64,000 bases of DNA from Beroe forskalii (lineage: Eukaryota; Ctenophora; Nuda; Beroida; Beroidae): positions 1 to 64,000 of the forward strand of contig WFMF01000465.1 of NCBI GenBank assembly GCA_011033025.1, in the 5' to 3' direction. The translations under genes were made by a program, and so were the position numbers. Below are positions 3,321 through 31,996 of this stretch, one piece after another; the stretch's first letter is position 1, and every line of letters begins with the position of its first letter. Under the pieces are notes generated by a model. It did no database searches. It was not told the DNA's origin and saw only the letters and a list, made by a program, of their open reading frames with translations.

Positions 3321-6300
3321 ATGTACATGTACAAGGCAACAGCGAGTGTGTGGTGCACTCTCAGCTTCTTCATAGTGGCTGGCAGCTGCATAGCCTTCTT
3401 TATGCCGTACTGGCTGGTGGCACCCAACCCAGAGCTCTTATTGGTCCAGGTAGGATACTCGCTTTGTTTGGTTGCTTGTTTGTGATGATGCAATTGAAAC
3501 AGATATACATGTATCCTTCATGGGACAACACACCCACTCCTAAGGGGGGATTGGGCGGCCTCCCTAGTTTTTCTAAAATCTGTGTATTATGACCCGGTGC
3601 CCTTTTCACACCCCCTCCCCCGTTGCAGGATAAGAACTTCCCAGAATCAGGGGAGTTAAGGGTCGATGCCCCAGCAGCCTGCGGGATAATGAGCTACTGT
3701 GTCCCTTACACCAACTACCCTCTCAACACATCCGTCAGGTAAGTGGCCATTTCCAAATAATCAATCTGGTTGGAAAACCTCTCATTGTTTAATGAGTCAC
3801 ATTCTACGACTCTGCACAGCATTAAATTTAATCTAGATCTAATGATTCACAAGGAAGTAACTATCATGCTACCATACTGTTTTCAGCTTTGATGAAGACG
3901 CACATTTGCAGAGGTGTCCCCTGTACGACACGTTCTACAATATCCCAACTATATTCGGCAAGGCAAGTTTTTATACACAATCTCTACATCTTGATTTCTC
4001 ATCATCTGCAATGTTTGCGTCAGGGTTATTCATCTTTGGCTGAATTAACACCTTAATCAGCATGTGTCATCTGTATTCTGTAATGTTCGCAGCTGGGTGT
4101 TTCATCCCTTGTTAAACTAACATCCTAATCCTGCAGGTGTCATCTGTAATGTTTGCAGCAGGGTGTTTCATCCCTTGTTAAACTAACACCCTAATCCTGC
4201 AGGTGTCATCTGTAATGTTTGCAGCAGGGTGTTTCATCCCTTGTTAAACTAACATCCTAATCCTGCAGGTGTCATCTGTAATGTTTGCAGCAGGGTGTTT
4301 CATCCCTTGTTAAACTTACATCCTTATCCTGCAGGTGTCATCTGTAATGTTTGCAGCAGGGTGTTTCATCCCTTGTTAAACTAACATCCTAATCCTGCAG
4401 GTGTCATCTGTAATGTTTGCAGCAGGGTGTTTCATCCCTTGTTAAACTAACACCCTTATCCTGCAGGTGTCATCTGTAATGTTTGCAGCAGGGTGTTTCA
4501 TCCCTGTTAAACTAACACCCTAATCCTGCAGGTGTCATCTGTAATGTTTGCAGCAGGGTGTTTCATCCCTTGTTAAACTAACATCCTAATCCTGCAGGTG
4601 TCATCTGTAATGTTTGCAGCAGGGTGTTTCATCCCTTGTTAAACTAACATCCTAATCCTGCAGGTGTCATCTGTAATGTTTGCAGCAGGGTGTTACATCC
4701 TAAACTAACCTTGTTAAATGTTTAACATCCCCCTAATCCTGCAGGTGTCATCTGTAATGTTTGCAGCAGGGTGTTTCATCCCTTGTTAAACTAACATCCT
4801 AATCCTGCAGGTGTCATCTGTAATGTTTGCAGCAGGGTGTTTCATCCCTTGTTAAACTAACATCCTAATCCTGCAGGTGTCATCTGTAATGTTTGCAGCA
4901 GGGTGTTTCATCCCTTGTTAAACTAACATCCTAATCCTGCAGGTGTCATCTGTAATGTTTGCAGCAGGGTGTTTCATCCCTTGTTAAACTAACATCCTAA
5001 TCCTGCAGGTGTCATCTGTAATGTTTGCAGCAGGGTGTTTCATCCCTTGTTAAACTAACATCCTAATCCTGCAGGTGTCATCTGTAATGTTTGCAGCAGG
5101 GTGTTTCATCCCTTGTTGTTAACATCCTAATCCTGCAGGTGTCATCTAATGTTTGCAGGGTGTTTCATCCCTTGTTAAACTAACACTAATCCTGCAGGGT
5201 GTCATCTGTTTCATCCCTTGTTAAACTAACACCCTAATCCTGCAGGTGTCATCTGTAATGTTTGCAGCAGGGTGTTTCATCCCTTGTTAAACTAACATCC
5301 TAATCCTGCAGGTGTCATCTGTAATGTTTGCAGCAGGGTGTTTCATCCCTTGTTAAACTAACACCCTAATCCTGCAGGTGTCATCTGTAATGTTTGCAGC
5401 AGGGTGTTTCATCCCTTGTTAAACTAACATCCCTAATCCTGCAGGTGTCATCTGTAATGTTTGCAGCAGGGTGTTTCATCCCTTGTTAAACTAACATCCT
5501 AATCCTGCAGGTGTCATCTGTAATGTTTGCAGCAGGGTGTTTCATCCCTTGTTAAACTAACACCCTAATCCTGCAGGTGTCATCTGTAATGTTTGCAGCA
5601 GGGTGTTTCATCCCTTGTTAAACTAACATCCTAATCCTGCAGGTGTCATCTGTAATGTTTGCAGCAGGGTGTTTCATCCCTTGTTAAACTAACATCCTAA
5701 TCCTGCAGGTGTCATCTGTAATGTTTGCAGCAGGGTGTTTCATCCCTTGTTAAACTAACATCCTAATCCTGCAGGTGTCATCTGTAATGTTTGCAGCAGG
5801 GTGTTTCATCCCTTGTTAAACTAACACCCTAATCCTGCAGGTGTCATCTGTAATGTTTGCAGCAGGGTGTTTCATCCCTTGTTAAACTAACATCCTAATC
5901 CTGCAGGTGTCATCTGTAATGTTTGCAGCAGGGTGTTTCATCATCTGTTATCCTTGTTAAACTAACATCCTAATCCTGCAGGTGTCATCTGTAATGTTTG
6001 CAGCAGGGTGTTTCATCCCTTGTTAAACTAACATCCTAATCCTGCAGGTGTCATCTGTAATGTTTGCAGCAGGGTGTTTCATCCCTTGTTAAACTAACAT
6101 CCTAATCCTGCAGGTGTCATCTGTAATGTTTGCAGCAGGGTGTTTCATCCCTTGTTAAACTAACATCCTAATCCTGCAGGTGTCATCTGTAATGTTTGCA
6201 GCAGGGTGTTTCATCCCTTGTTAAACTAACATCCCTAATCCTGCAGGTGTCATCTGTAATGTTTGCAGCAGGGTGTTTCATCCCTTGTTAAACTAACATC

Positions 6301-8481
6301 CCTAATCCTGCAGGTGTCATCTGTAATGTTTGCAGCAGGGTGTTTCATCCCTTGTTAAACTAACATCCTAATCCTGCAGGTGTCATCTGTAATGTTTGTA
6401 ATGTTTCATTTGCAGCAGGTGTCATCTGTAAGGGTGTTTCATCCCTTGTTAAACTAACATCCTAATCCTGCAGGTGTCATCTGTAATGTTTGCAGCAGGG
6501 TGTTTCATCCCTTGTTAAACTAACATCCTAATCCTGCAGGTGTCATCTGTAATGTTTGCAGCAGGGTGTTTCATCCCTTGTTAAACTAACATCCTAATCC
6601 TGCAGGTGTCATCTGTAATGTTTGCAGCAGGGTGTTTCATCCCTTAAACTAACATCCTAATCCTGCAATAATGTTTGCAGCAGGTGTTTCATCCCTTGTT
6701 AAATTAACACCCTAATCCTGCAGGTGTCATCTGTAATGTTTGCAGCAGGGTGTTTCATCCCTTGTTAAACTAACATCCTAATCCTGCAGGTGTCATCTGT
6801 AATGTTTGCAGCAGGGTGATTCATCCCTTGTTAAACTAACATCCTAATCCTGCAGGTGTCATCTGTAATGTTTGCAGCAGGGTGTTTCATCCCTTGTTAA
6901 ATTAACACCCTAATCCTGCAGGTGTCATCTGTAATTTTTGCAGCAGGGTGTTTCATCCCTTGTTAAACTAATATCCTAATCCTGCAGGTGTCATCTGTAA
7001 TGTTTGCAGCAGGGTGTTTCATCCCTTGCTAAACTAACTCCCTAATCCTGCAGGTGTCATCTGTAATGTTTGCAGCAGGGTGATTCATCCCTTGTTAAAC
7101 TAACATCCTAATCCTGCAGGTGTCATCTGTAATGTTTGCAGCAGGGTGTTTCATCCCTTTTTAAACTAACATCCTAATCCTGCAGGTGTCATCTGTAATG
7201 TTTGCAGCAGGGTGTTTCATCCCTTGTTAAACTAACACCCTAATCCTGCAGGTCATCTGTAATGTTTGGCAGGGTGTTTCATCCCTTGTTAAACTAACAT
7301 CCTAATCCTGCAGGTGTCATCTGTAATGTTTGCAGCAGGGTGTTTCATCCCTTGTTAAACTAACATCCTAATCCTGCAGGTGTCATCTGTAATGTTTGCA
7401 GCAGGGTGTTTCATCCCTTGTTAAACTAACACCCTAATCATGCAGGTGTCATCTGTAATGTTTGCAGCAGGGTGTTTCATCCCTTGTTAAACTAACATCC
7501 TAATCCTGCAGGTGTCATCTGTAATGTTTGCAGCAGGGTGTTTCATCCCTTATTAAACTAACATGCTAATCCTGCAGGTGTCATCTGTAATGTTTGCAGC
7601 AGGGTGTTTCATCCCTTGTTAAACTAACATCCTAATCCTGCAGGTGTCATCTGTAATGTTTGCAGTAGGGTGTTTCATCTCTTGTTAAACTAACACCCTA
7701 ATCCTGCAGGTGTCATCTGTACTGTTTGCAGCAGGGTGTTTCATCCCTTGTTAAACTAACACCCTAATCCTGCAGGTGTCATCTGTAATGTTTGCAGCAG
7801 GGTGTTTCATCCCTTGTTAAACTAACACCCTAATCCTGCAGGTGTCATCTGTAATGTTTGCAGCAGGGTGTTTCATCCCTTGTTAAACTAACACCTAATC
7901 CTGCAGGTGTCATCTGTAATGTTTGCAGCAGGGTGTTTCATCCTGCTCCTGTCCTGGGCGTGCAGTGCTATTTCACTGTGCTACGGTTACCTCTGTGACG
8001 TCAGTACCTACCTTCTCATATCAGTCATACAGCTCTTCTGCAGTGAGTTAACTCATTAACGTTAACTATAGCTATTCAAGAATTGAGTATAATCGCTTCA
8101 TTCAAAGTATAATATAACTTCTATGCATTGTGCATCTGAAGCTGTGTATGAATTAGTGTTACCATGAATCTGTGTACCCACAACACATCACAGGGTTATT
8201 ACGTCAGACAACACATCCAAGGGTTATGAAGTTTAACCATCCCTCCCATTTCAGTGGTGATTAACGGAATAGCCATTCTCCTGTGGACCCTAAGCTGGGA
8301 GAAGGACACCTTCACCTGCTCTGGAGAGGGTTACTGCGGTGACCTGGAGAGGTTTGACATGGGCACCTGCCAACTCGGCTGGGCCTTCCTCCTCGCCATG
8401 GCCTCTACTGGCACTATCATCCTTGCCGTGTTCTTTGGTTGCTTGTCCTTCATGTTACAGAAGAAAAAGGAAGAAAGTTAG
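3321..8481 (+). CDS. LHFPL-type tetraspan membrane protein, five exons, complete
   Basis: Exons 3321-3449, 3629-3738, 3887-3962, 7907-8042 and 8255-8481 join with matching phases to give 225 residues, the normal size of LHFPL (lipoma HMGIC fusion partner-like) proteins. Residues about 9-32 form the first membrane helix, ending in the family-typical PYWL. An extracellular loop with cysteines follows (CGIMSYC, RCPLYD). Three more helices lie at about 107-127, 134-154 and 191-212. The second loop has the family hallmark of cysteines followed by GTCQLGWA before helix 4. The tail is short and lysine-rich. LHFPL proteins act as auxiliary or scaffolding membrane subunits, for example with stereocilia or GABA-A receptor complexes in vertebrates; the partner here is unknown. 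The ATG at 3321 lies just before helix 1; an upstream exon cannot be excluded. Intron 3 starts with a GC donor (AAG/GCAAGT) and is filled by the 66-bp array. Confidence 0.85.
4000..7906 (+). repeat. 66-bp tandem array made from the intron's own 3' splice site and the start of the next exon
   Basis: About 57 copies of a 66-bp unit fill intron 3 of the LHFPL-like gene, most copies nearly identical. Each unit is 37 bases identical to the start of exon 4 (GTGTCATCTGTAATGTTTGC and the following 17 bases), then 29 intronic bases ending in TAATCCTGCAG. Every unit boundary therefore carries a copy of the real 3' splice site. The last copy, at 7907, continues into the true exon. In the exon frame each truncated copy reads about 14 codons and then meets TAA. 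The first units (about 4000-4130) are degenerate. A few units carry small deletions or rearrangements (for example 5110-5215 and 6395-6435). Confidence 0.93.
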
Positions 8482-12344: not shown

Positions 12345-12986
12345 ATCTTTTCGGTAAATTGAGCGATCCGTCGAGGCCAGTATCACGCCAGTATCGCGCC
12401 AGTATCAGGCCAGTACCACGCCAGTATCACGCCAGTATCGCGCCAGTATCAGGCCTACCTCACGCCGTTATCGCGCCAGTATCACGCCAGTATCGCGCCA
12501 GTATCACGCCAGTAGCGCGCCAATAGCACGCCAGTAGCTCGCCAGTAGCACGCCAGTATCGCGCCAGTATCACGCCAGTACCGCGCCAGTAGCACGCCAG
12601 TATCACGCCAGTATCACGCCAGTCGACACTAACTTAAAGCCAGGACGCCAGTAGCACGCCAGTATCAGATCATATACTGGCGTGTTACTGGCGTCCTGGC
12701 TTTCGTGCTAAGATACTGGCGTGATACTGGCGTGCTACTGGCGTGCTACGCGCGGTACTGGCGTGATACTGGCGCGATACTGGCGTGCTACTGCGTGCTA
12801 CTGGCGCGCTACTGGCGCTATTGGCGCACTACTGGCGATACTGGCGTGATACTGGCGCGCGATAACGGCGTGGTAGGCCTGATACTGGCGTGATACTGGC
12901 GTGATACTGGCGTGGTACTGGCCTGATACTGGCGCGATACTGGCGTGATACTGGCCTCGACGGATCGCTCAATTTACCATCTTTTC
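12345..12986. mobile_element. foldback transposon with 11-bp satellite arms and perfect 8-bp target duplication
   Basis: The element spans 12353-12978 and is flanked by the perfect direct repeat ATCTTTTC (12345-12352 and 12979-12986). It begins GGTAAATTGAGCGATCCGTC and ends with the reverse complement of this. Each arm then consists of tandem 11-base units (CGCCAGTATCA and variants CGCCAGTATCG, CGCCAGTAGCA). The left arm is inverted relative to the right around a centre near 12650-12680. An 8-bp duplication points to the hAT or P superfamilies, and the arm structure resembles Drosophila foldback elements. No transposase is encoded, so it is non-autonomous. Confidence 0.9.
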
Positions 12987-15450: not shown

Positions 15451-16336
15451 TTGTCTTATAGAAGACACGTGTCCCCATTGTCAAACGCAAGGAAACATTA
15501 TCTCCAGAAGAAAACTATACATCATTTGTCCTATATTGATGAGTAATTTATAATTGATTTAGGTATTGTCTTTTGACTCAATGGTACAGGTACAAATCTA
15601 AACGATGTGGTTCTTTAATGATAATCAATTTCGTCGTTCTACGACATCTTCAAGTCTAAAATTTGATTGAATAAAGTAGTGTTGTAAGGTTTAAAACATT
15701 TGTCCTATAGAAATAGTTAGATAGTTGTCAGATGGCTATAAGACCCCAGCTGTGTTACGTTCCTAGCTCAGCGAACACAGCTGTATATAGGGCCGATTTT
15801 TGTCCATTTGGTTAAAAAAGGTCCGGTTATAACGACCAAAAAGGCAAATTACCATGCCTTTCCAACTGACGGTAGGTCCAATTGACGGCTTTTCTCGTAT
15901 ACTTATGTGGAGAATGACCCAGATCAGGACTGCGTGGAGCAATCTGAGGGTCATAGGAGTTTGTCGAGCACCACGTATCTTCGTTTTCCCCGGATTATGT
16001 TTCATAGTTCCTCACGTTCCCCTAGGGGTTTAGTTGCCTGTTATGTTGTTATTGTTATTTTAGCATCCGTCTGACCGCCACAAGGTGCGCGCTCATACGG
16101 CTAATTGGTTTCCTACTTTATCCTCTTAGCACTGACGTGTACCCTTTCAAGGCTTATTCATGTTATCATAACGCGATTATATGGGGATTATGACGTCATT
16201 GTTTTATACCTTTATATATCCCGATCTCAATAGGATCGGGGCCCTTTTACTTGGTCTGGATGTTGCTATACCATTTGTTTTACTTAGTGTTACCGCTCGG
16301 TACTTAACCCTCAGAACCCTTAGAGGGATTTTAACA

Positions 16337-16627
16337 TTATATCGTTTTAAACAAGAATCAGCAGCTGTTGATCAGACTATCAGATTCTTGAAGTTCCATC
16401 ACCGTCTTAATAAGAGTAATTTTTGTGAGTCTGTGGAAGCATTTACAGTTTTTGAGGAAACGTCCTACTTTTGACAGGGCGCTTAGCTTTTTACAAAGCT
16501 TACAAAGCCCACCTTTGCCCTGGTTTTTGGCATTACACTGGCATTATATTTAAGCAACAACTGCCTCTCATTGCGTATACCTGCATTCTACCGGCCTCCA
16601 ATCCTGCATTAAACGTATTGATTATTT
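16337..16627 (+). repeat. dispersed repeat family B, copy 1
   Basis: About 85-90% identical by eye to 21961-22236 in the same orientation (shared GTTGATCAGACTATCA, TTCCATCACCGTCTTAATAA, ACGTCCTACTTTTGACAGGG, CCGGCCTCCAATCCTGCATT). The copies differ by single bases and short indels that break every reading frame, so it is probably a transposon fragment. I could not assign a family. Confidence 0.75.
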
Positions 16628-17544
16628 TTCCCAAAACCAAAAAGGATTTGGTTGTGTTGGTCCGCAGCAGTTTTATCGTTCTTTACTCTAAAACCTTTGA
16701 TATTCGGGATTATGGCCTAAAATATTTTTAATTGTAGGCCTACAATATCTTTTATAGTAACCTTTCATTGAATTTGGTTTCAGTTCGGGATGGATACAGT
16801 GCAGTGTGCTCACTGACTGTGTCCATGGCTCCCGGGGTTGTAGGTTTCTTGGGCTAGGGAGCTGAAAACCCGTGTGCGGTACATTTTGTGCCTCATAATC
16901 ACCCTTGCCCAACTGATGACCCCTTGTTAGCCCAGAGCACTTGTTGGTTTATGAGCATGATTTTGAATCACTCCTTTCTTTATTATTATTATTATTTGCC
17001 TACTAACTATGAAGACATGGACTGATCAGGGTTCAGCAATTCTGTACTCTGGTTAGTAGATAAACATATACCAAAAGATGAGGGCCAGGGATGCCCCCGT
17101 CTTATCAATACTCGGTACATCGTTTTGCATTTTTCTTTCGCAATTTTCGGTTTTTAAAGTGATTCAATTAATGTCAATTGTCTCAATGATTACAGGAATT
17201 GGAAAATCATTGATGAAGATTTAAAAAAATGCGGGTTGGTACATTTTTAGAAGGCATTGAAAAAGTAGTGCAGACAAAACTTCAGCTCCTTATGTCAAAA
17301 AGGTATCGCCGTGGGATTTTTGAAGGTGCCAAAGGCACAAGTGCATCAAATACCAAAATGATGTGGTCCTCTTGGTAGCGTATATCGGGCTTTTATTTCT
17401 ACAAGTTGGTTTGCCCCAAACAGGAACCTGGTATTCGCACACCTTTGGAAGTTTAGGGTGACGACTGAAATTATACAAAACTTGTAGGCCCGTCGGACCT
17501 GCAAATACACAGCTCACTCATTCATCTGACGAAAAATAGTAATT

Positions 17545-17770
17545 TTTATCGCATCAAAAAATGCCGATCTGAACGTGTATTTAACACAGTATAATTATTA
17601 ATGATCGCGCGCGATCAGTCATGCACGTTCAACAGCATAGCAACCATAGTTACGCGCGCATATACCGGAAATTGAGGAGAAATGAGCACCGTAATCAAAA
17701 CAACTTCGTAAGAAATGACGCACGTGCTTCAAAAACGTGCACTTGTCCATATGCGCGGGCGTTGTCAATC
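17545..17770 (+). repeat. dispersed repeat family A, copy 2
   Basis: Diverged direct copy of 11668-11905. Its right end runs directly into dispersed repeat family C at about 17765, so the two may belong to one longer element. Confidence 0.6.
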
Positions 17771-17951
17771 TTCAAGAATTTGAAGAGGCGAGTCTGATCT
17801 ATCTGCTCATATACTATCTATTAAGTTATCAACTCGCGTATTCTGCAGTTTGCCATATAACCAGGGGGCATGCCCCCTCAGCAATCAGCATACGCCCACA
17901 TCCTCAGCGGTCTCTTTCTGGCGACAAATGTCTGTTATTCGAGAGGTTTAA
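17765..17951 (+). repeat. dispersed repeat family C, copy 1, left part (interrupted)
   Basis: Matches 32530-32750 (AATTTGAAGAGG, TTTGCCATATAACCAGGGGG, CATACGCCCACATCCTCAGC, TTCGAGAGGTTTAA). It is cut at TTAA (17948-17951) by the element at 17952-20280 and resumes at 20281. Confidence 0.8.
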
Positions 17952-20280
17952 AGGGGTTGGCAACTACAGAAAAAGTACCATATTTTATTATCTAATTTAC
18001 CTATAAATACTGTGAAAACAAAATGTGTGAAATCCCCATGTTTTAAGCCTCCAATCGTGAGATATCGCACCTTTATGTTACCGCGCGATTGCGTCACAGT
18101 GGCAGTTCACCACAACCCAGCGCTATGATCACTAGGTTAATGCTGTATTTTATTAGTATTTGACAGCATTGAGATGCATATTAGTGCATATTAGACGAGG
18201 CGTAGCCGAGTTTCATATGAACAATATGCATTGTAATGATGGCGAATACTAATATTAGTAGCTTAGTAGGTCAGCAGAAAGATAGTAATGCATAAGCATG
18301 TATAATATGCATGTGAAAAGTGAGGGAACCTACTATAATTTAGTATAATATATTGCTCCACCATAACATAGCGTCGAGTTAGTTTGAGGGCCGAGTTGTA
18401 TGGAGGCCCGAGTTTGTGGGTGAGCCCGAGTTTAAACTCAGGCTCACCCCAAACTGAGTTAACTGGTGGGCTATGTTGAACTATGGCTCCCTTATAACTC
18501 CCCTGCCAACCAGGGGCTGCAATACTAACTCGGGCTCCCCATACTAACCTGAGCTCCCCATACTAACAGGTTCCCCATTTCTAACCTTGGCTCCCCATAC
18601 TAACTCGGTCTCCCCCATACTAACTCGGGCTCTCCCATACTAACCTGGGCTCCCCATACTAACTTGGGCTCCCCCATACTAACTCGGTCTCCCCCATACT
18701 AACTCGGTCTCCCCCATACTAACTCGGGCTCCCCCATACTAACCTTGGCTCCCCCAAACTAACTCGGTCTCCCCCGTACTGCACCTCAACAATTGTTGAG
18801 GTGCACAAATAATCAAATAGTATAGGGGAGCCCAGCTTTGCATGGGTGATGGGGGAGCCCTGGAAGTTAGTATGGGGAGCCTAAATAGTATGGGGAGCCT
18901 GATATACAATGGGGAGACCGAGTTAGTTTGGGGAGCCAAGTGGGGGAGCCAAGGTTAGTATGGGGGAGCCTGTTAGTATGGGGAGACTGAGTTAGTATGG
19001 GGGAGACCGAGTTAGTATGGGGGAGCCCAAGTTAGTATGGGAGAGCCCGAGTTAGTATGGGAGAGCCCGAGTTAGTATGGGGGAGACCGAGTTAGTATGG
19101 GGAGCCAAGGTTAGAATGGGGGAACCCAAGTTAGTATGGGGGAGCTCAGGTTAGTATGGGGGAGCCCGAGTTAGTATTGGGTAGCCCCGGTTGGCAGGGG
19201 AGTGCGAGTAAGTGTGGGGGAGCCCAAGCTATGGTGAAGCCCAGGATAAGGTGGAGCCTAGGATAAGGTGGAGCCAGGTATGGTGAAGCCCAAGGTAAGG
19301 GCGAGCCTCGTTTGGGTGATCCAATATTTCAGAGTTAGTCCAAAATATCAGTAAGGCCCAGGATAAGGTGCCAAGGTGGAGCCTGTTATGGTGAAGCCCG
19401 GCAATGAGGTGAGTCTGGTTAGGGTGACACCGAGTATAGAGGTGAGCCCCGGAAAATCAGGTGAGCCCTAGATTCAGGGGAGTGGTGTATAGGTGAGCCC
19501 GTGATTAGAGGTGATCCCGTGTGAAGGGGAAGCCTGGGTACGGGTGTCGCTGCTATGTGCGATTTCAGGCATAGGGGGAACATTAATGCCTCCCCTTATT
19601 CCCGGGCTCCCATACTTGCCAACCCCATTGTCACTGCATATGACCCGATACATTATTCTTTCCTGTATTGTACGGCTTGCTAGATAATTTTCTGACGAGT
19701 ACACAGTCTTGAAAGCTGGGCATGGATCTGTTATATCGCACATGCATTTTTGACCCATCATAAATTTCAATTTTTCAAAGCAGGCCTTGGCTTCTTAAAT
19801 TTAAAACTTCAAAAACCTATTCGTCTTGATTAGCGTATTTTCATGGCTAAGAAGTCATGAGCAAATATAAAAGGGGTTTCACGCACAGTAAGTAATGTGT
19901 CTACTCAGATCCCCTGACCACCAGTTATGAATAATATAGATAACGTATGTGTTATGACTGAAGACTGAGAAAACTACGACAAACGGAGATGATCAAAACT
20001 TCAAGGGATCAAATAAATAAATAAAAAATCTGGTTAAATCGTAAAGGAATTAGCACCTAAAACACGATACAGCCGTTTTACCAGTAATGTAACGCAGCGC
20101 AATAACATGTAACTGCCACAGTGACGTCATCGCGCTAAAATCTTTAAACCGCAATAACTCGCGGAATAATTAAGATAGAGAGGTGAGATTTTCTCCATTG
20201 TGTAAAATGCTAGGTGAGAATTGATAAAAACAAAATTATTTTCACGTTCCTGCTAGTCAATTCTATAGTTGCCAACCCCT
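17952..20280. mobile_element. 2.3-kb TTAA-flanked element with inverted satellite arms
   Basis: The terminal inverted repeat AGGGGTTGGCAACTAYAGAA is present at both ends, with one mismatch. It is flanked by TTAA on both sides (17948-17951 and 20281-20284). The uninterrupted target is seen in the sister repeat near 32745, which has a single TTTAA. TTAA target duplication is typical of piggyBac and Kolobok transposons. Inside is a large inverted array of about 20-bp units. Units CCCCATACTAACTCGGGCTC lie at about 18530-18780 and their complements at about 18930-19200. The arms meet at the perfect 26-base palindrome 18780-18805. No transposase frame was found, so it is non-autonomous. Confidence 0.85.
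18500..19260. repeat. inverted array of ~20-bp GAGCCCGAGTTAGTATGG units
   Basis: Core of the TTAA element. Roughly twelve units on the left read as CTCCCCCATACTAACTCGGG, and a similar number on the right are inverted. A related but more diverged, single-orientation array lies at 34240-35045. Confidence 0.85.
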
Positions 20281-22310: not shown

Positions 22311-22425
22311 TGCACGAGCTTGCTAGTCGCCGAGTCCATTTATTGGGAAGCAATAGCGCGCGGTTGTTACGTTTGACTTTGTCCGCTCCAACTGCTGACT
22401 GTATTCTTGACACTTTCTACTACCG

Positions 22426-25400
22426 ATGACACACTTTATCCTACCTGGAAAGATGACTAGGAGGAGAGGAAGACCGCCGAACGCTCCTACTCATCCCCTC
22501 TCTTGTCAAGCTAAGTACACATCTTCTTATATGCCCGACCGAAGTGGGTCATTCCCAATGTCTGCATGGATTGAACTCGACTTGGATAGGCCTGACGCCT
22601 CTGTTCCCACCTTCAGGACGGATGACAGTCCAGACACCTTCTCACTGGAAGCCAGCACCTCCACTCAGCCAGAACATCACGCTGTTGCTGCTCCTTTTCC
22701 AGCTAAGTTAACTGTCTGCATGTATATGTCCGCCCGAAGTCGACCTTTCTTTCACTCCACCGACTTGGACCCCGTAGAAGCTATGCCACCTCCATTCTCC
22801 AGGCACCAGTTCCAGTCTGACATGCCACGGGAACAAGTCGAAGAGAGATCAGTGGGCTACGGACGGACCCCGATCCCCCCATCAGATGCCCTCGGAACTA
22901 CAGCTAAGCAATCACAAATTTCTACTCCCAACGTAGCAAACTACAAACAATTTACAGCAACTAACCACGATACTGCTGAATGTACTTTCCCCAACCACAG
23001 GGCCGCCAATTACCTAAATAAACACTATGTGTCAAGTTACACCCAGTTAACTCGCTACACACAAGGTAACGAGCCCTGTGGCAATGAGATCCTGGTAACA
23101 CTGGACTCCAGATCTCGTGAAAACACTACGGGTGTAGAGATTACCATCGCCCAGAGGGTGAAGAACTGTTCCTTCTCAGCTGTAACCCTCCCCATTTGTC
23201 ACGCTCCTCCACTCAGGTTTCTCCTTAGACGAGAGCAGACTTCTGTCACTGGGAACGGCAGAGCCTCGAAACACCGACCTCCTCCACCACCAACCTCTTC
23301 ACCCAAAGCTGTCAGCACGTGTGGGCCATTTCCAAGGGCTCAGAAAACATCGCCGCTTTGGGAGCCCTCGTCAAATTTTCCATTTTCCAAAAATGACGGC
23401 ATCCAAAACCCCCTACCACGTCTGCCGAGGGGTATGCATGCCCCATTCGAGCTGTGCAGCGCGGCGTATACCACTGCGCCACGGCCCCAGGCACAAATCT
23501 TGTTTCGCATTGCATGCAGATCATCACCTGAGCACCTTATTCCCTCTAGCACAAATCATGAGACAGTGGCTTCGGATTCGAAACACTCCAAATCTGAGTC
23601 CACCACTAGTGCTAACAACAGCTCCCTCAACACCACACACGGTAGAAACAGGTCGACAGGTGGCAGAAGACCCCTGCATCAAACCAATCATACCCTCAGG
23701 AACAGTCGAGACGATGATGACGGTGAGAGACGAAATGGTGAAAGCACAGGCAGGACGAAAACTCGCTGTGAGGAAGACTGTGAGAGTGTTAACGATCCCG
23801 GCGATCCCGCCTCAACCGCATCTCCAAATGAAGCACCACGTCTTCCGTACAACTCCACCCAGCTAGACATCTTCTCTGACACTCCGACACAGTCCATGTC
23901 ATCAGGGATAAATGAAATGTCCATACTGGGAGGCATTTCTAGAATTCTGGACGCTGCCAAAAATATCACTCTTTTTGGCGCCACCTTAAACCCCAAGTCC
24001 CCTAATAGTCTTAACACAATGAACATTGACTCCCCAAAATTTGATTTTTCAGTATCGCTGTCAAATCACAATGACACTTGCATAAACATTGCTACGCAAC
24101 AGCTCAGTGAGGAAATCTTCGAGAATGAGCCATTCTTCACACCCCTTCGAGCACGCACACCAACACAGAATAATCGGACCCCTCTGGACATTGCTGCTAC
24201 ATCCAAGTACCTACACTCCTCTTCTAAATCAAGAAGACCGAGATCCCTATCTGGAAGCAGTGCAGGGAAGCCGTATAGGGTTCCTCCAGGTAATCTCCTG
24301 CGACAGCGTCTCGTGGAGAGGCTACACGAGCCCCCTCTTACAAGAAGAAGGTACTCATCAGAGTCCATTGCAGCTGAAATTGCAGCAGCTGAAGTCTCCG
24401 ACCTCTCTGACATGGCACTCTCCAAGAACACCTCAGAGACCAAATCTTGCAACCAGCTGAGTTACAGCTGCATTCAAGTCAACAGGGAGGGTACTCACGA
24501 CTGCAGCCAGGGCAGTGGACGTCTCATAAGAGTTGATGATGATATTCTTCATCAAGAAAATTATCCTGTGCTCCCCGCGATGACTGAACGAGCTATTGTA
24601 TCTGCTATTGACCGGAGCATATCAGGAAACGTGTCAGCGAGCCCCATAACCATAAGCCCTCTGAATCACTCCCTGGAACTTGCATGGGACCCGAAGCTCA
24701 TAGGTCAAGGTAAGACCGATGATCCCCTTCCTGATTCACCACGAGGCCTTCTTCAAGCCCTCCTGTGCCTCATGAACCACCATGCTTCATTAGTGACTGG
24801 GATAAAGACATGTTACAATGCTCTGAGGATAAAGAGCATTCCCGACAGGTCTCACAGGCTTGAAATATCCCCAAGTGACCCAGAAATGCCACTGATGATC
24901 CTTCATTTGGGGCAAGAGCGCTCTATAGACATGATACCCATCAAACGAGACTTGCAGTTCCGTGATGTTTTTGACATCAAACTCAGAAACTTCTCAGTGC
25001 TCACCGTCTTCCCCCTGACACACGCAAAAATGAAGATTATTCTTCCCAGCGAAAGAGTTTATGAGGGTGACGAATGTGATTACCATATCATCATTGTACC
25101 ATTTCATTCGGCAGATTGGGATGTGCAGGTTGGCCAACATACGCAGTGTCATGTCAAATCTGCACATCAGGTGGCAGTGGTAAGCGAGGAGGCTCCTCTC
25201 CGGTCAGAGAACAGCCCAGGAGATCATGTGGCAGTGGTAAGCGAGGAGGCTCCTCTCCGGTCAGAGAACAGCCCACGAGATCAGGTGGCAGTGGTAAGCG
25301 AGGAGGCTCCTCTCCGGTCAGAGAACAGCCCAGGAGATCAGGTGGCAGTGGTAAGCGAGGAGGCTCCTCTCCGGTCAGAGAACAGCCCAGGAGATCATGT

Positions 25401-28308
25401 GGCAGTGGTAAGCGAGGAGGCTCCTCTCCGGTCAGAGAACAGCCCAGGAGATCATGTGGCAGTGGTAAGCGAGGAGGCTCCTCTCCGGTCAGAGAACAGC
25501 CCAGGAGATCATGTGGCAGTGGTAAGCGAGGAGGCTCCTCTCCGGTCAGAGAACAGCCCAGGAGATCAGGTGGCAGTGGTAAGCAGGGAGGCTCCTCTCC
25601 GGTCAGAGAACAGCCCAGGAGATCATGTGGCAGTGGTAAGCGAGGAGGCTCCTCTCCGGTCAGAGAACAGCCCAGGAGATCATGTGGCAGTGGTAAGCGA
25701 GGAGGCTCCTCTCCGGTCAGAGAACAGCCCAGGAGATCATGTGGCAGTGGTAAGCGAGGAGGCTCCTCTCCGGTCAGAGAACAGCCCAGGAGATCATGTG
25801 GCAGTGGTAAGCGAGGAGGCTCCTCTCCGGTCAGAGAACAGCTCAGGAGATCATGTGGCAGTGGTAAGCGAGGAACGACGAAGTAAGACCCAGGAGCCCA
25901 TGTCACCAATTCAAGAAGTCGAAACAGAAAATGACAGCCTCACTCCAACCAATCCAAACGACACAAAGACCTCTCACGAGCTTACATTCACAGAAGGAGA
26001 AACTCAACTGGACGATTCCAACTTCCTATGTATCGATCTTTGCATAGGCATCATTAACTCTGTCGGCTCAGTCAACTATCTAGCCACTTGGCTGGATGAT
26101 TGCAAGGAGACACACAGCGAAGATCCTTACATAAACAGAGGGCTGCTTCTCAATCTTGTTCAGACAATATTGGAGAAGAAGATAAAGCCCCCAGAGCCAC
26201 TGGTAACAGCTTTCATTGATCAGCTCAAGGCATCAGCAATAGACAAAGAGCTAATTCGCCTCAAAGTGGCTACTGGCAAGAAGAAAATGTCTGTCTCGGA
26301 GAAGAAGGCTCTCCTTAAAAACAGGATTCTCTCTGCTACACCAGCAAAACCATCAAGAGCCCATTCAGCGGAGCTCGAGAAGCAAGCCACCGAAATACCA
26401 CTATTGCTCCATAGCTGTTCTGATAATAGCCATACAGAATCAGATACTCAAATTGGAGGGTCTTCAACCTCTGAATATGAACCTTGCGAAAAAACAAACA
26501 AGCAACGGTCAAGAGAGAATGCAGCTCTACCACCCCATAACCTTGCACTGCCAAAACAGCCGCAACCAAATGCTGGAAAATTGGGCATTGCTAAGTCAAA
26601 AAAGAAGAAGAAAAAGAAAAGCAAAAAGGATAACAACACGACTTGTGAAGATAAAGTCAAAGCTCCTAGTGAAAAGCTCAAGGAGGCGAAAGAAGTGGCG
26701 AACTCAGAGATGACAGGCAGCATTAGTGGCTTTACAAACATCAAAGTAATTCAAGAAAAGCTCATTCAGATGGAAGAAGAACAGCGCCAAAGAAACCATG
26801 CCATCAATGACGAACTTAAAAGACAAAGCAGCTGCCTCGATTTAATCCTAAAAGAGGGGGAGGGGAAAAAGAAGATTCCAGCAAACAGCCACACTGACAA
26901 CCCAGAACTCACAAAAAAGATGTCCTTGCTGGAGCAGAAGATCAAAATATTTGATGAACATCTGGAGATTCAACAAGAGAAAGTCAACCAATTAATTATG
27001 AAATATAATGTGGTTAAGAATCTAGAGAAGAACATGGAGCTAAGATTTCAAGAGACGAATAAGGACATAAAAGACATTTGTGACACTCTTTCAGAATTCA
27101 GCAACAAAGTCTGGACCTCCGAGTCTACACAGTATAACAAATTAGGCCCAGTCAAGTCCAGTGAAAATCAGACGCCAAGAGGGTCAACCACAGATACCAC
27201 GGCTTCAAAGATGTTAGTGACCCAGGGGACCCAGACTGATGACCTGCAAAGCGTCTGGTTAGACAATGTGACACACAAATGTAACTGCAAGCCACCTACA
27301 CAAGCTGTCACATTAGAAACCGACACCTGTGGTACTGAAAACGTCAGAGTGACAGGTACATTAAACAAGGCAAGCACTGATAAGGATGACGTGATCAAAG
27401 GTAATATCCCAGTGAAATTTAGTTTCATGAAAAATCCAACAAGACAGGCAGATTCTAGGGAGAATGGGGACCAGCCCCCAGCAGAAAGTAGCAGTACAGG
27501 CACTGGTCCGAAGCTCACAACCTTGAGTAGTGATCCCTCAACAGACGCAGAGCATGAGACTCATGGGAGCAATAAAGAAAACCCCTGGATTCACTCTAGT
27601 AGGGAAAAGAAGACGGAGAGTAACAATCCTGACATGGCCAGCAAGAATGTCTCCCATAATCCTAGCGATACAGACAAGCCAGCATCACAGCATGCTAGGG
27701 ATACTTACAGAAGGAAGAGGTGTCTACTTATCCATGATGGCACGTTCAGAGGATTTGATCAAGGAAAATTCTCCCGCCAGCTTGAAGTGAGTAAGTACTT
27801 TAGCAGCTCGATATCAAACCTGTCATCTGATGCTAAACTCAAACTGATGCTGTCACAGAAAAGCTTTGACTGTGTCTTTATCCACATTGGCTCAAAAGAT
27901 GCTAAGTCACCATGTAACCCGACTAAGACCAAAAGGGAGTTAGAGTCCACAATGTACTACCTGCTAGAGAATACCAAATCTAATATCTGCTTTTCCACTG
28001 TCATACCCACAGCAAATAATGACAGATACAACAAGAATGCATCAGAGATTAACCAAATCATCATGGAGACAGTGTCCCATGCAAGGAACATCAATGCGAA
28101 TAATAGACCGTGTTTATTCTCATATAACAACAACTCTATGAAGGACTTCTGTAGACTCGAATCAAATGAAGTTGTGCTATCTGAATTTGGGAGACTCACT
28201 ATGTGGAAACGCCTTGACGATGGACTCCGCAAAACGATGAGAATGACCAGAAGGAAAATGAGCAAGACTGAAAACAAAGGCAACAAAAGGACACGTTATA
28301 ATGAGTAA
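22426..28308 (+). CDS. LINE ORF1 protein with internal 19-residue repeats and C-terminal SGNH/esterase-like domain
   Basis: 1960 residues from the ATG at 22426, far longer than typical LINE ORF1 (about 300-700). The N-terminal 900 residues are low-complexity, rich in serine, proline and threonine. Residues about 916-1150 are a dozen perfect-to-near-perfect 19-residue repeats (VAVVSEEAPLRSENSPGDH). A lysine-rich patch follows near residue 1391 and a coiled-coil-like segment at about 1440-1560. Residues about 1765-1945 resemble the SGNH hydrolase/esterase domain found in ORF1 of CR1 and L2 elements: CLLIHDGT for block I and VFIHIGSKDA for block III. The catalytic serine position reads HDGT rather than GDS, so activity is doubtful. 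ORF1 proteins bind element RNA. The stop codon lies inside ATGAGTAA, which also starts ORF2. Confidence 0.8.
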   Translation: MTHFILPGKMTRRRGRPPNAPTHPLSCQAKYTSSYMPDRSGSFPMSAWIELDLDRPDASVPTFRTDDSPDTFSLEASTSTQPEHHAVAAPFPAKLTVCMYMSARSRPFFHSTDLDPVEAMPPPFSRHQFQSDMPREQVEERSVGYGRTPIPPSDALGTTAKQSQISTPNVANYKQFTATNHDTAECTFPNHRAANYLNKHYVSSYTQLTRYTQGNEPCGNEILVTLDSRSRENTTGVEITIAQRVKNCSFSAVTLPICHAPPLRFLLRREQTSVTGNGRASKHRPPPPPTSSPKAVSTCGPFPRAQKTSPLWEPSSNFPFSKNDGIQNPLPRLPRGMHAPFELCSAAYTTAPRPQAQILFRIACRSSPEHLIPSSTNHETVASDSKHSKSESTTSANNSSLNTTHGRNRSTGGRRPLHQTNHTLRNSRDDDDGERRNGESTGRTKTRCEEDCESVNDPGDPASTASPNEAPRLPYNSTQLDIFSDTPTQSMSSGINEMSILGGISRILDAAKNITLFGATLNPKSPNSLNTMNIDSPKFDFSVSLSNHNDTCINIATQQLSEEIFENEPFFTPLRARTPTQNNRTPLDIAATSKYLHSSSKSRRPRSLSGSSAGKPYRVPPGNLLRQRLVERLHEPPLTRRRYSSESIAAEIAAAEVSDLSDMALSKNTSETKSCNQLSYSCIQVNREGTHDCSQGSGRLIRVDDDILHQENYPVLPAMTERAIVSAIDRSISGNVSASPITISPLNHSLELAWDPKLIGQGKTDDPLPDSPRGLLQALLCLMNHHASLVTGIKTCYNALRIKSIPDRSHRLEISPSDPEMPLMILHLGQERSIDMIPIKRDLQFRDVFDIKLRNFSVLTVFPLTHAKMKIILPSERVYEGDECDYHIIIVPFHSADWDVQVGQHTQCHVKSAHQVAVVSEEAPLRSENSPGDHVAVVSEEAPLRSENSPRDQVAVVSEEAPLRSENSPGDQVAVVSEEAPLRSENSPGDHVAVVSEEAPLRSENSPGDHVAVVSEEAPLRSENSPGDHVAVVSEEAPLRSENSPGDQVAVVSREAPLRSENSPGDHVAVVSEEAPLRSENSPGDHVAVVSEEAPLRSENSPGDHVAVVSEEAPLRSENSPGDHVAVVSEEAPLRSENSSGDHVAVVSEERRSKTQEPMSPIQEVETENDSLTPTNPNDTKTSHELTFTEGETQLDDSNFLCIDLCIGIINSVGSVNYLATWLDDCKETHSEDPYINRGLLLNLVQTILEKKIKPPEPLVTAFIDQLKASAIDKELIRLKVATGKKKMSVSEKKALLKNRILSATPAKPSRAHSAELEKQATEIPLLLHSCSDNSHTESDTQIGGSSTSEYEPCEKTNKQRSRENAALPPHNLALPKQPQPNAGKLGIAKSKKKKKKKSKKDNNTTCEDKVKAPSEKLKEAKEVANSEMTGSISGFTNIKVIQEKLIQMEEEQRQRNHAINDELKRQSSCLDLILKEGEGKKKIPANSHTDNPELTKKMSLLEQKIKIFDEHLEIQQEKVNQLIMKYNVVKNLEKNMELRFQETNKDIKDICDTLSEFSNKVWTSESTQYNKLGPVKSSENQTPRGSTTDTTASKMLVTQGTQTDDLQSVWLDNVTHKCNCKPPTQAVTLETDTCGTENVRVTGTLNKASTDKDDVIKGNIPVKFSFMKNPTRQADSRENGDQPPAESSSTGTGPKLTTLSSDPSTDAEHETHGSNKENPWIHSSREKKTESNNPDMASKNVSHNPSDTDKPASQHARDTYRRKRCLLIHDGTFRGFDQGKFSRQLEVSKYFSSSISNLSSDAKLKLMLSQKSFDCVFIHIGSKDAKSPCNPTKTKRELESTMYYLLENTKSNICFSTVIPTANNDRYNKNASEINQIIMETVSHARNINANNRPCLFSYNNNSMKDFCRLESNEVVLSEFGRLTMWKRLDDGLRKTMRMTRRKMSKTENKGNKRTRYNE
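25171..25873 (+). repeat. 57-bp in-frame minisatellite inside LINE ORF1
   Basis: About 12 copies of a 57-base unit beginning GTGGCAGTGGTAAGCGAGG. The unit is a multiple of three, so ORF1 stays open, and long spurious frames also stay open in another plus frame and on the minus strand. Copies differ at only a few positions, which indicates recent expansion or homogenisation. Confidence 0.95.
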
Positions 28309-31300
28309 AAATGCAGGAAGCTCCACTAAATACTATTTCAATGGAACACTGGTCATAACCTCCTGGAACATTCATGACTCCTCAGATAGTGTCTTGGGCA
28401 CAAAGACTTCCCAGAGTTGCTTCACCGACACAGTCACACAGAGTGATATTTTCTGTTTGCAAGAAACCAAGGGAAGTATCAAAATCCCAGGTTACAAATG
28501 CTATAACTCTGAGAGACCAGACAGTCGGTCAGGTGGTATCTGCATAGGGGTACGACATGAGATCTCTCCCTTCATCAGCCACATAAAAACCATCAGGTCT
28601 CGAGACATCCAAGCGACTGTCATTTCCCGCAAGCTAACCAACTTACCCAAAGATGTCCTTCTAATAAACATCTATGATTCACCTGAAAATTCCTCGTACA
28701 AGCTGAAGCAGATTGCCAATGGGTGCTATGAAGAAACCCTCGAAGTCCTGAACAACATTATAACATCCAAAAGTCATGATCGCCTTCTGATCATCTGTGG
28801 TGACTTTAATGCAAGGACAGGGTGCACAAACAGCGCTTCAGGAACGGATGACCAGGTAATTGAAGGCCTTATAGCTGGCTCCTTTACCAATACAAGCCAC
28901 CCTACAACAACTAGTCAACGCTCCAGTAGGGATATGAAGCTGAACCAAAGAGGCAAAAAGTTGATTGACCTGGCAACAGCACATAACCTCAGAATTCTAA
29001 ATGGTGCGACTATTGGTGATGCAACTGGAGAGTTCACTTGCGTCACATACAATGGACTTAGTGTCGTGGACTACTTCCTTGCTTCAAATGAAATTGCCAA
29101 CAATATTAAGTCCCTATCAGTGAAGGAGTTCACTAACATATCTGACCACAGACCAATTTCTTGCAAGCTACGAGCTGACTCACCACCATCCTTTCCCTCC
29201 CTAGAAAGAGCACTGAACTTCAATGATAAACCTTTGGGTTATAGATGGGACAAAAGCCCTACAGGAGGATCAAAAGAAAAGTTTACAGTGCTTCAAAATA
29301 CCCCCCTTATGGAAACCAAAATCAAAGAAATATGTCGCAAAGAGTGCACTGATCCTGAAGATGTGAAAAGGCTGAATGAAACCCTAGTGACAACCCTCCA
29401 TGAAATTGCCACAGGGTCACTTGAAAAGAAAAAGAAGCCCAAAAATAAGGGTCACAACAAAAATAAATGGTTTGACTCCGATTGTCGGAAAGAGAAGAGG
29501 AAGACTAGCAAGCTAGGTAAGCAATACTGCAAGACGCCCACTATCATCAACAGAGACAGATGCTACAAGCAGAAGAAGTCATATCGTCAGATTCTAAAAA
29601 GGAAAAAGCGATCCTTTTTTGCCAAGCTAAGCAAAAAGATTATCGGTGAAAAAACTATCAATTGGAGTGGCTTCAAATCACTGAAGTCCTTTAACACCAA
29701 GCCAAACCCAATGGATCTGTACGATTTGGCCAACTTTTATAAATTCTTCAAGGATTTGTACTCCAAAAAAACACTGCCTGAAGGTACAATCCTAGAAATG
29801 AAGGAGGCCTACACATCATCCAACTCCACTAATGAAGAAGCCCTGGATTCCTTAACAGGAGTGTTGAATGCTGACATTACAGAACCCGAGCTAGAGGCAG
29901 TAATCAAGAAACTAAAGAACGGCAAAGCCACGTCAGAGGACTGTGTTCTGAATGAGTTCTTAAGGAATGCTTCACCCCCTCTTAAACAAGGTATTCTCAA
30001 GCTGTTCAACGAGTGCCTCGAACATAGTGTATATCCATGGAACACTGCGCTCATAACACCACTCTACAAGAAAGGGGACAAGTATGACCCAAACAACTAC
30101 AGAGCTATAGCTGTGAACAGCAACATTGGGAAGCTTTTCTCAGGTATCTTGCTAGAGAGGCTAGTCAACTTCAGGGACTTGTTCTGTCCAGACCCCACTA
30201 ATCAACTGGGTTTCTGTAAGGGGGCCCAAACATCCGACCACATCTTCACACTAGACACCTGTATCCAGAAACACCTCAAAAAGAAGGAGTATCTCTACGC
30301 ATGCTTCATCGACTTCCAGAAAGCCTTCGACACAGTGTGCAGGGAGGCACTGCTGTTTAAGCTCTACAACCTTGGAATCAATGGGAGGTTTTTTGACTGC
30401 CTCAGTAACATGTACAGTAATTCCAAGGCCAAAGTCAAATTATTGGATAAGGTATCAGATTCCATTGAAGTCCTCATTGGCACTGAACAGGGCCACCCCA
30501 TGAGTCCTGAGCTTTTCAAATGCTTCCTCCTGGAACTGTCGGACATCCTGGACAGGACTGAAGGTGTGGAAGCCCCAGAGCTCGACAACAATAAAATCAC
30601 ACACTTACTTTGGGCTGACGACCTAGTTCTTCTAGCACTAAACAAAGAATCACTCCAAGCACTCCTAAATCAGGTTTACAAGTATTGCGAAACCTGGGGT
30701 CTGACAGTTAACCTGGAGAAAACGGCAATCCTTGTGTTCAACAAATCAGGGAGACGTCTGAAAGGGAGTTTTGGGTTCAAATACGGGCAACATAGGGTCG
30801 ATTCAGCAAAGAGTTATTGTTATCTTGGAATAACATTCAACCTGAGTGGCAGTATGAAGGCAGCACAGAACGAATTAAGACTCAAAGGACTGAAGGCTTA
30901 CTTTGCTATGAAACGCAGCATAGACATATCAAGTCTCAACACCAAGTCACTATTCCGGCTATTTGACTCACTGATATCCCCTGTGTTTACCTATGGCTGC
31001 CCAGTTTGGTTTCATGAAAGTAGCTATGTGAAGCTTTTAACATCAGAAGAACTGATGAAGGACCCCAGATTGTCAATCACCAAGATTGCAAGAGATCAAT
31101 CAGAACAAATCCATATCAAATTTCTGAAATGGACGCTGGGCCTATCAAACAAAGCTTCTAACATGGTTTGTTGGGGGGACACCGACAGAACACCTATGGC
31201 AATCCGGACTATAAAACAGGCCCTTGACTACGCTGGCAGACTGGAGCTGTTGAACGCCACTGCAATCCAACCGAAGTCCCTTGCAGTGTGTGCCTACAGA

Positions 31301-31996
31301 GAACAGGTGAAAATGAAACTGCCATGGTACAATGCTGTGACTGGGGTAAGACAGGCTCTTCAGCAAGACACACCTCATACCAGTGTCGCCAAAAGTGCTA
31401 TGGAAAACATGTTCCGTGATGTTTGGAAAGCTGCATTGAGAGAATACCCAAAACTTTCATTTTACAATACTGTCAAACGAGACATGTCCTACGAGCCCTA
31501 CCTTGACCTTTTGAATCACTGTGAGAAAAGATGCATTGCCAAGATTAGGGCAAGCAACCATCGGCTCAACTGTGAAACAGGAAGGTACCTCCCCAGCAAG
31601 AACTCTTCCTCCTACAATAGTGAAAAGGAAAACATGACTTGGAGGAAAAGCTGCAAAGTATGCTGTGCTCCAGAGGCCAAAGACCTAGCGCAACTGCCTT
31701 TCCATATCCCAATCATTGAGGATGAACAGCACGTCCTCGTCACATGCCCAGCCTACCACCACCTGAGGCTAGACCTTAGAGATGACGTTAAGTCCCTGGT
31801 CGTTGCTTGGGACGCTGAAGAGCTGTGCCATCTCTTCGATGAAGGCAACATCAGGCACTTTGCCAAATTCGTCAAGAAAGTCCTTGATGTGCGGTTCCCC
31901 AAAGAAGAAGGTGCGGGTTCAATGGATCAGGAACACTCAGATTCAGACACAACGGATCCTCGGCATCATAGCATCAGGAACAGCTCGGCATCATAG
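28301..31996 (+). CDS. LINE ORF2: endonuclease and reverse transcriptase
   Basis: 1231 residues. Residues about 15-295 form an apurinic/apyrimidinic endonuclease with its key motifs: SWNIHD, the catalytic QETKG, GDFNAR and the final SDHRPI. Residues about 575-850 are the reverse transcriptase. It has LYKKGD...NYRAI, motif A FIDFQKAFDTV near 669, motif B EQGHPMSP near 730 (usually QGCPLSP) and the catalytic WADDLVLL near 771. A cysteine/histidine cluster (CKVCC...H...C) lies near 1118-1150. It nicks target DNA and copies the element RNA there. The start ATG overlaps the ORF1 stop by eight bases, which suggests translation by termination and re-initiation. No stop or frameshift interrupts it. 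Confidence 0.92.
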   Translation: MSKNAGSSTKYYFNGTLVITSWNIHDSSDSVLGTKTSQSCFTDTVTQSDIFCLQETKGSIKIPGYKCYNSERPDSRSGGICIGVRHEISPFISHIKTIRSRDIQATVISRKLTNLPKDVLLINIYDSPENSSYKLKQIANGCYEETLEVLNNIITSKSHDRLLIICGDFNARTGCTNSASGTDDQVIEGLIAGSFTNTSHPTTTSQRSSRDMKLNQRGKKLIDLATAHNLRILNGATIGDATGEFTCVTYNGLSVVDYFLASNEIANNIKSLSVKEFTNISDHRPISCKLRADSPPSFPSLERALNFNDKPLGYRWDKSPTGGSKEKFTVLQNTPLMETKIKEICRKECTDPEDVKRLNETLVTTLHEIATGSLEKKKKPKNKGHNKNKWFDSDCRKEKRKTSKLGKQYCKTPTIINRDRCYKQKKSYRQILKRKKRSFFAKLSKKIIGEKTINWSGFKSLKSFNTKPNPMDLYDLANFYKFFKDLYSKKTLPEGTILEMKEAYTSSNSTNEEALDSLTGVLNADITEPELEAVIKKLKNGKATSEDCVLNEFLRNASPPLKQGILKLFNECLEHSVYPWNTALITPLYKKGDKYDPNNYRAIAVNSNIGKLFSGILLERLVNFRDLFCPDPTNQLGFCKGAQTSDHIFTLDTCIQKHLKKKEYLYACFIDFQKAFDTVCREALLFKLYNLGINGRFFDCLSNMYSNSKAKVKLLDKVSDSIEVLIGTEQGHPMSPELFKCFLLELSDILDRTEGVEAPELDNNKITHLLWADDLVLLALNKESLQALLNQVYKYCETWGLTVNLEKTAILVFNKSGRRLKGSFGFKYGQHRVDSAKSYCYLGITFNLSGSMKAAQNELRLKGLKAYFAMKRSIDISSLNTKSLFRLFDSLISPVFTYGCPVWFHESSYVKLLTSEELMKDPRLSITKIARDQSEQIHIKFLKWTLGLSNKASNMVCWGDTDRTPMAIRTIKQALDYAGRLELLNATAIQPKSLAVCAYREQVKMKLPWYNAVTGVRQALQQDTPHTSVAKSAMENMFRDVWKAALREYPKLSFYNTVKRDMSYEPYLDLLNHCEKRCIAKIRASNHRLNCETGRYLPSKNSSSYNSEKENMTWRKSCKVCCAPEAKDLAQLPFHIPIIEDEQHVLVTCPAYHHLRLDLRDDVKSLVVAWDAEELCHLFDEGNIRHFAKFVKKVLDVRFPKEEGAGSMDQEHSDSDTTDPRHHSIRNSSAS

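Follow-up and report, generated by a model that had tools for sequence, protein, structure and literature searches.

Minisatellites that repeat an exon-intron boundary have been called 'mirages', the original description of which is reportedly that of Canestro et al. in 2002; length polymorphism and somatic instability are also counted among their properties. In amphioxus, such minisatellite-like boundary duplications are reported for the globin genes BflGb6 and BflGb9, where they occur on both sides of exons and carry AG or GT signals in many of their units; that in BflGb6 has 6 units in one haplotype and 3 in another, results of reverse-transcription polymerase chain reaction (RT-PCR) suggested that splicing was undisturbed, earlier work on a mirage in Adh3 is cited, and a model is proposed in which mirages give rise to introns (PMC3087553, in the portions available to us). 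Tandem duplication is also reviewed more generally as a route to intron gain (PMC3443670, in part), a specific case being potato RdRp, where according to the accessible text a tandem duplication supplied the branch site, pyrimidine tract and acceptor of a new intron (PMC4974935). Here we describe an array of 66-bp units in intron 3 of an LHFPL-like gene, found in a 64,000-nucleotide stretch of genomic DNA from a ctenophore (contig WFMF01000465.1, positions 1 to 64,000; hereafter the window, to which coordinates refer unless another sequence is named). In our judgement it is very probably a minisatellite of the mirage type, that is, a junction duplication that has grown by slippage or exchange and is tolerated, with the last acceptor being the one used.

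The junction array of the LHFPL-like gene

The gene occupies positions 3327-8481 of the forward strand, where five exons join into an intact frame of 223 residues. Exon 1 (3327-3449) is the first coding exon identified and begins with ATG, although an earlier exon is possible; it is followed by exon 2 (3629-3738), exon 3 (3887-3962), exon 4 (7907-8042) and exon 5 (8255-8481), which includes the stop codon. The product matches Pfam family PF10242 (LHFPL, lipoma HMGIC fusion partner-like) over residues 7-213 with E 6e-18 and 66.2 bits against a cut-off of 25.2; a search against solved structures gave no match at E 0.001. Intron 3 (3963-7906) is 3,944 nt long, the remaining introns measuring 179, 148 and 212 nt, and it opens with a GC-type donor, AAG/GCAAGT (intronic part 3963-3968; the slash marks the splice boundary), just as the initial annotation had it. 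That exon 4 does start at 7907 is supported by the Pfam score, which falls from 66.2 to 52.9 bits once the 12 residues encoded by the part of exon 4 shared with the repeat are deleted, and the parse described below places it at the same point. When the protein was used to look for another haplotype or a near paralogue, the best candidates included this locus only, while the family search added one further weak LHFPL-like exon, on C514 (labels beginning with C or L are our own), under the curated cut-off.

Nearly all of intron 3 is taken up by the array. Tandem Repeats Finder reports a span of 4077-7943, undivided at periods of 132 and 198 but broken into three pieces at a period of 66, and parsing of 4077-7906 on the forward strand yields 58 segments, corresponding to 57 decoy acceptors and the authentic one at 7906. 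The authentic 3' splice site (7887-7906), placed by this parse and by the joined frame, has the same type of sequence as the decoys. The consensus unit consists of the 37 nt that open exon 4 followed by a 29-nt intron tail, CTTGTTAAACTAACATCCTAATCCTGCAG, and exon 4 and the repeat diverge immediately after nucleotide 37. The initial annotation's count of about 57 copies, and its view that they carry the acceptor tail of the real site, are therefore borne out, as is the origin of the unit in the junction between intron 3 and exon 4. Exactly 66 bp is the length of 43 of the 58 segments, 25 of these 43 being identical to the consensus, and the window has 46 exact occurrences of the 37-mer if the real exon is counted. 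Within the copied intron tail a branch-point-like CTAAC, a run of pyrimidines and a CAG can be recognised by eye.

Several properties by which mirages are recognised can be read directly from this arrangement. Every unit spans the boundary, with 37 nt of exon and 29 nt of intron; the array is intronic and its terminal copy is the authentic junction, the array ending at 7906 and exon 4 continuing from 7907; splice signals are present in many units, with AG at 56 of the 57 decoy acceptors (the single exception being CAA); and a unit at the boundary has escaped homogenisation, since the array proper begins at 4077 and is preceded by a remnant, outermost copy at about 4001-4070 that is degenerate, matching the unit in 54 of 70 alignment columns. 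Dispersal across many genes, as would be expected of introner-like elements, is not seen: a 42-base pattern taken from the junction, for which exact copies alone were searched, has 46 matches in the 216-Mb genome from which the window comes, every one of them in the array or at the authentic junction, which implies that no dispersed element is involved.

Reading from the decoys into the array ends in an in-frame stop in all 57 cases. The initial annotation had put a TAA after about 14 codons throughout; termination is indeed universal here, and the position holds for most, with 47 decoys stopping at the 15th codon and the remainder no later than the 26th. On neither strand does the array contain a frame of at least 110 residues, and a coding array was accordingly rejected as a candidate. 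Private variants and indels occur in several units, in no periodic order. Among the 43 units of exactly 66 bp there are 23 substitutions in the intron part as against 6 in the exon part (Fisher p 1e-4), but this excess rests on one polymorphic site, without which p = 0.086, so that no claim of selection on the decoys is made.

Exon-edge repeats elsewhere in the genome

The duplication of a splice junction is not confined to this one intron. A wider search found other cases in the genome, on both the acceptor and the donor side and about as frequent as local repeats in random intervals, and the class is the one described in amphioxus as mirages. Four further acceptor-side cases belong to the adjoining dynein-like region, the Pfam matches of which are weak (AAA_7 26.5 and AAA_8 26.1 bits, barely above the cut-offs; AAA_9 27.2 and AAA_6 20.2 bits, both below them).

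The largest of the four is a second junction minisatellite, with a unit of about 79 bp, at 59056-61072 on the forward strand of the dynein heavy-chain-like part. It was delimited by means of the motif [CT]AG/GC[AT], which gives 25 sites that were taken as decoy acceptors, some of the units being partial. The real exon (61073-61224), the first 56 nt of which are repeated in the array, lies outside the AAA_9 stretch, so that its dynein-like assignment depends on its frame and on the exons downstream. Compared with the array consensus it has 5 nucleotide differences, which fall in 4 codons and are all synonymous, as expected if coding constraint acts on the real exon only. Use of the last decoy acceptor (61001-61072) would add 24 residues that repeat the start of the exon.

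The other three are single decoys, each ending in a stop. One, at 51661-51710 and with its own CAG, precedes a real dynein-like exon with an AAA_7 match at 51878-52029 (51658-51710 is 96% identical to 51875-51927); another, at 39644-39684, precedes an exon at 39731-39935 (39641-39684 is 91% identical to 39728-39771); both are on the forward strand, and both exon ends were set by eye. The third lies about 8.7 kb past the end of the window, where a decoy at L017 8705 precedes an exon at 8839. For the exons at 39731 and L017 8839 the dynein-like placement is by position and open frame only.

To place these cases in proportion, exons were picked from the genome at large for their protein family rather than for their repeats, comprising 37 AAA_9 matches outside C542 (of 38 in all), 11 iGluR matches and one LHFPL match, the last below the curated cut-off; 8 of the 37 AAA_9 matches consist of the whole domain in a single open frame. 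Counting those direct-repeat copies of an exon edge that lie outside the Pfam match, edge-crossing repeats were found at 5/37 dynein, 1/11 iGluR and 1/1 LHFPL exons, a total of 7/49 of which one is doubtful. Repeats merely near exons (41467-41609 and 54230-54705 in the window, and L026) were excluded from the count. The positive loci were inspected by eye and their decoys then counted. On the acceptor side there are 9 decoys on C163, 7 on C277 with only about 8 nt of exon in common, 2 at the iGluR exon on C264, and 7 at the LHFPL paralogue on C514. C822 has two donor-side arrays and, in addition, the doubtful case, an acceptor-side copy for which the real exon is not preceded by an AG. L038 holds a further array, probably on the donor side and with a 44-bp unit, beside an open frame outside the Pfam-anchored set.

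The C822 locus has some further points of its own. At L067 2436-2668, a dynein exon copy reading VLNRELRRTGGRVLITIGDQD begins at 2632 and is immediately preceded by CAC in place of CAG, so that either its own acceptor has been lost or the assembly is wrong at this base, while the decoy 196 nt upstream of the 2632 exon has an intact CAG and then runs into a stop. The donor-side array at L067 1660-2165 repeats the final 36 nt or so of an exon three more times; each copy is followed by GTGAGT and has a CAG shortly upstream, so that the copies could resemble small cassette exons.

Over the nine acceptor-side loci, C822 being left aside, 109 of the 110 counted decoys terminate. This is about what one would expect from reading into introns, and is not of itself evidence of design. 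At the seven smaller of these loci an AG is present at 25 of the 28 decoys.

Origin of the array and choice of acceptor

The favoured account of how such an array could arise needs no special machinery. A segment made up of the tail of intron 3 and the opening 37 nt of exon 4, and so spanning the 3' splice junction, would have been duplicated in tandem; slippage or unequal exchange, acting repeatedly, would then have brought the number of copies to 58. The last copy leads into the intact exon 4, and provided that exon 3 is joined to this last acceptor the mRNA would be unchanged. The authentic acceptor would most likely be picked by exon definition, since at 136 nt it is closer than any decoy to the donor of exon 4, and any transcripts using decoys would meet an early stop and so be candidates for removal by nonsense-mediated decay. 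The homogeneous interior, the degenerate copy at the 5' edge, and the existence of like anatomy elsewhere with 1 to 25 decoys all support a mirage origin. As a control, local direct repeats were found to touch 631 of 4000 random 180-nt intervals drawn from 134 kb of the genome; random intervals are thus affected about as often as the 7/49 exons, and no mechanism targeted to splice sites is needed. Most simply, local tandem duplication would be widespread in this genome, with copies internal to exons purged by selection and those crossing a junction surviving, being tolerated because one intact junction stays in place. The origin of the array is, then, probably neutral.

There are nevertheless clear points that weigh against this account, particularly as regards splicing. 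If introns rather than exons were being defined, the first decoys would be favoured, since use of the acceptor at 4136 would give an intron of 174 nt, the usual size in this gene, as compared with 3,944 nt for the authentic acceptor. Nor is exon definition clean, given that the closest decoys are separated from the donor of exon 4 by only 201 and 267 nt. Termination is not universal either: in the 79-bp array 24 of 25 decoys terminate, but the last, at 61001, is open and in frame. The control, too, has to be read in the knowledge that 64 of its 134 kb come from the window, which was selected because of its repeats and has a locally repeated share of 16.8%; in the seven remaining stretches this share ranges from 0 to 31.1%, or 8,938 of 70,000 bases when they are taken together. 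Finally, the choice of the last acceptor is a prediction made from sequence, which should itself be counted on the negative side.

A more ambitious proposal would be that the array is a functional rheostat, in which decoys compete with the authentic acceptor and the proportion of LHFPL mRNA that is productive depends on how long the array is, making it a poison splice region tunable by copy number. It could draw on the presence of 57 near-identical acceptor sites, all with the tail of the real site and all leading to termination, and on the normal size of the intron made with the first decoy. However, background duplication accounts for the rate at which junctions are duplicated, and in amphioxus RT-PCR suggested no interference (PMC3087553, in the portions seen), so that this proposal seems unlikely. 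Much the same improbability attaches, in our estimation, to its extension to the whole genome, according to which ctenophore junction arrays would be a general source of decoys, their copy number tuning splicing and their units feeding new introns and exons, with the LHFPL array as an extreme allele. It might alternatively be that the array is far shorter, or absent, in the animal itself, tandem arrays being error-prone in assemblies and a second haplotype not having been found; but the private variants without periodicity, together with the clear two-copy junction duplications nearby, make an assembly artefact very unlikely.

Recursive splice sites act as zero-length exons, and the initial annotation had raised this possibility for the unit borders. 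Junctions of the form CAG/GTGTCA could in principle regenerate a 5' splice site, so that the intron would be removed stepwise and wrong choices repaired. AG/GT is indeed present at almost every unit border, and by a crude estimate of U1 duplex energy the regenerated AAG/GTGTCA (-5.2 kcal/mol) is not far from the GC donor (-5.9) or the exon 4 donor (-5.7). On the other hand the best donor in the gene reaches -13.2 kcal/mol, against which the regenerated site pairs only weakly with U1, and that site does not have the A4 and G5 of the donor consensus. Nor is an exon start in GT a property of the class, as it is found at only 3 of 9 acceptor-side junctions, that of LHFPL intron 3 included (a count that omits the tenth, C822, where there is a GT start but no AG before it). 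A further difficulty is that this donor would be recreated at the authentic acceptor as well, exposing exon 4 to skipping. So much of the suggestion as concerns the AG/GT borders therefore stands, while recursive splicing itself appears decidedly improbable. Least credible of all, to the point that we would give it hardly any weight, is the insertion of a dispersed element, introner or satellite into intron 3: the 66-bp units are intron-like in being flanked by GT and AG, but all 46 exact junction matches in 216 Mb are at this locus, and the unit contains coding sequence of the LHFPL-like gene itself. Leader trans-splicing is also reported in ctenophores (PMC8527503, in the part available), and unpartnered acceptors could in principle take a trans-spliced leader.

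Host, neighbouring features and relation to known systems

The host is a ctenophore, probably Beroe or a near relative, to judge from several sequences in the same genome. Amphioxus, considered first because mirages are known from it, was rejected on the mitochondrial, photoprotein and iGluR results that follow. C1134 is its mitochondrial genome (13,339 bp, 17% GC), in which COX1 scores 333.7 bits under genetic code 4 as against 311.4 (code 5), 309.6 (13) and 315.2 (9), and cytochrome b 125.3 bits under code 4 as against 117.2 (5) and 116.8 (13), while a putative ND5 frame does not discriminate (78.7, 79.4 and 78.3 for codes 4, 5 and 13). AGA and AGG occur in COX1 at what we take to be conserved arginines, and we know of no bilaterian mitochondrial code in which these codons specify arginine. 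The two long unassigned frames that follow the ND5-like frame appear, from their placement, to resemble the published gene order of Beroe forskalii (PMC6991124, in part). Five photoprotein matches with uninterrupted frames stand in a row at C254 149759-154035, and one of these frames matches berovin with E 3e-133 (13/207 residues differ, counted by eye on the printed alignment) and mnemiopsin with E 1e-126 (20/204, likewise), both far above obelin. The best structure match of an iGluR frame is to the ML032222a iGluR (E 5.5e-65), presumably a Mnemiopsis receptor. A search for the GFP family gave no match, but it gave none in the control genomes either.

The rest of the window contains a minus-strand 5S rRNA gene at 777-901 (Rfam RF00001, 98.9 bits); a non-LTR (long terminal repeat) retrotransposon at 22411-31996 with two long frames of 1965 and 1244 residues, in which a weak GDSL-lipase match, an endonuclease and a reverse transcriptase are recognisable, the first frame also holding a 57-bp repeat present 12 times (25166-25874); and, at 45774-48353, a single frame of 859 residues with thrombospondin-1, beta/gamma-crystallin and kringle domains. 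Nothing was found when the retrotransposon was compared with a phage collection. At 12376-12955 and 18522-19300 there are pairs of minisatellites (11-bp and about 20-bp units) that are roughly reverse complements facing each other over short spacers. Outside the window, two sets of dynein AAA_9 matches lie inverted a few kilobases apart at C441 9520-11283 (plus) and 16286-17918 (minus).

A literature search found no report of junction arrays in ctenophores, most subscription papers being beyond its coverage. Of the systems that might be compared, the duplication in potato RdRp has in common with the LHFPL array the copied branch site, pyrimidine tract and 3' splice site and the AG/GT at the ends of units; in the LHFPL case, however, the copies remain within an existing intron and there is no sign of a new intron or exon. 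Recursive splice sites share the AG/GT at the junction, but here the donor half is weak and an exon start giving AG/GT is missing from 6 of the 9 junction duplications. With one genome showing stages from 1 to 57 decoys, the proposed path by which duplicated junctions would lead to new introns becomes open to comparison across ctenophore species, and the locus itself constitutes a natural experiment in which the spliceosome has to find one authentic acceptor among 57 near-identical decoys.

Much the closest resemblance is to the amphioxus mirages. These share with the LHFPL array the boundary-spanning intronic tandem units with the authentic junction at one end, the AG/GT signals, and the boundary units that have not been homogenised, and with the arrays of this genome as a whole the occurrence on both acceptor and donor sides. 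The differences are that the host is a ctenophore rather than a cephalochordate, and that there are 57 decoys as against the 6 and 3 units of BflGb6 (the one published count compared, Adh3 being outside the comparison). As far as our searches go, the novelty thus lies in the phylum, Ctenophora, for arrays of the mirage type, and in a copy number above that one published count. Mirage minisatellites would thereby be extended from the cephalochordates to a lineage near the base of the animals.

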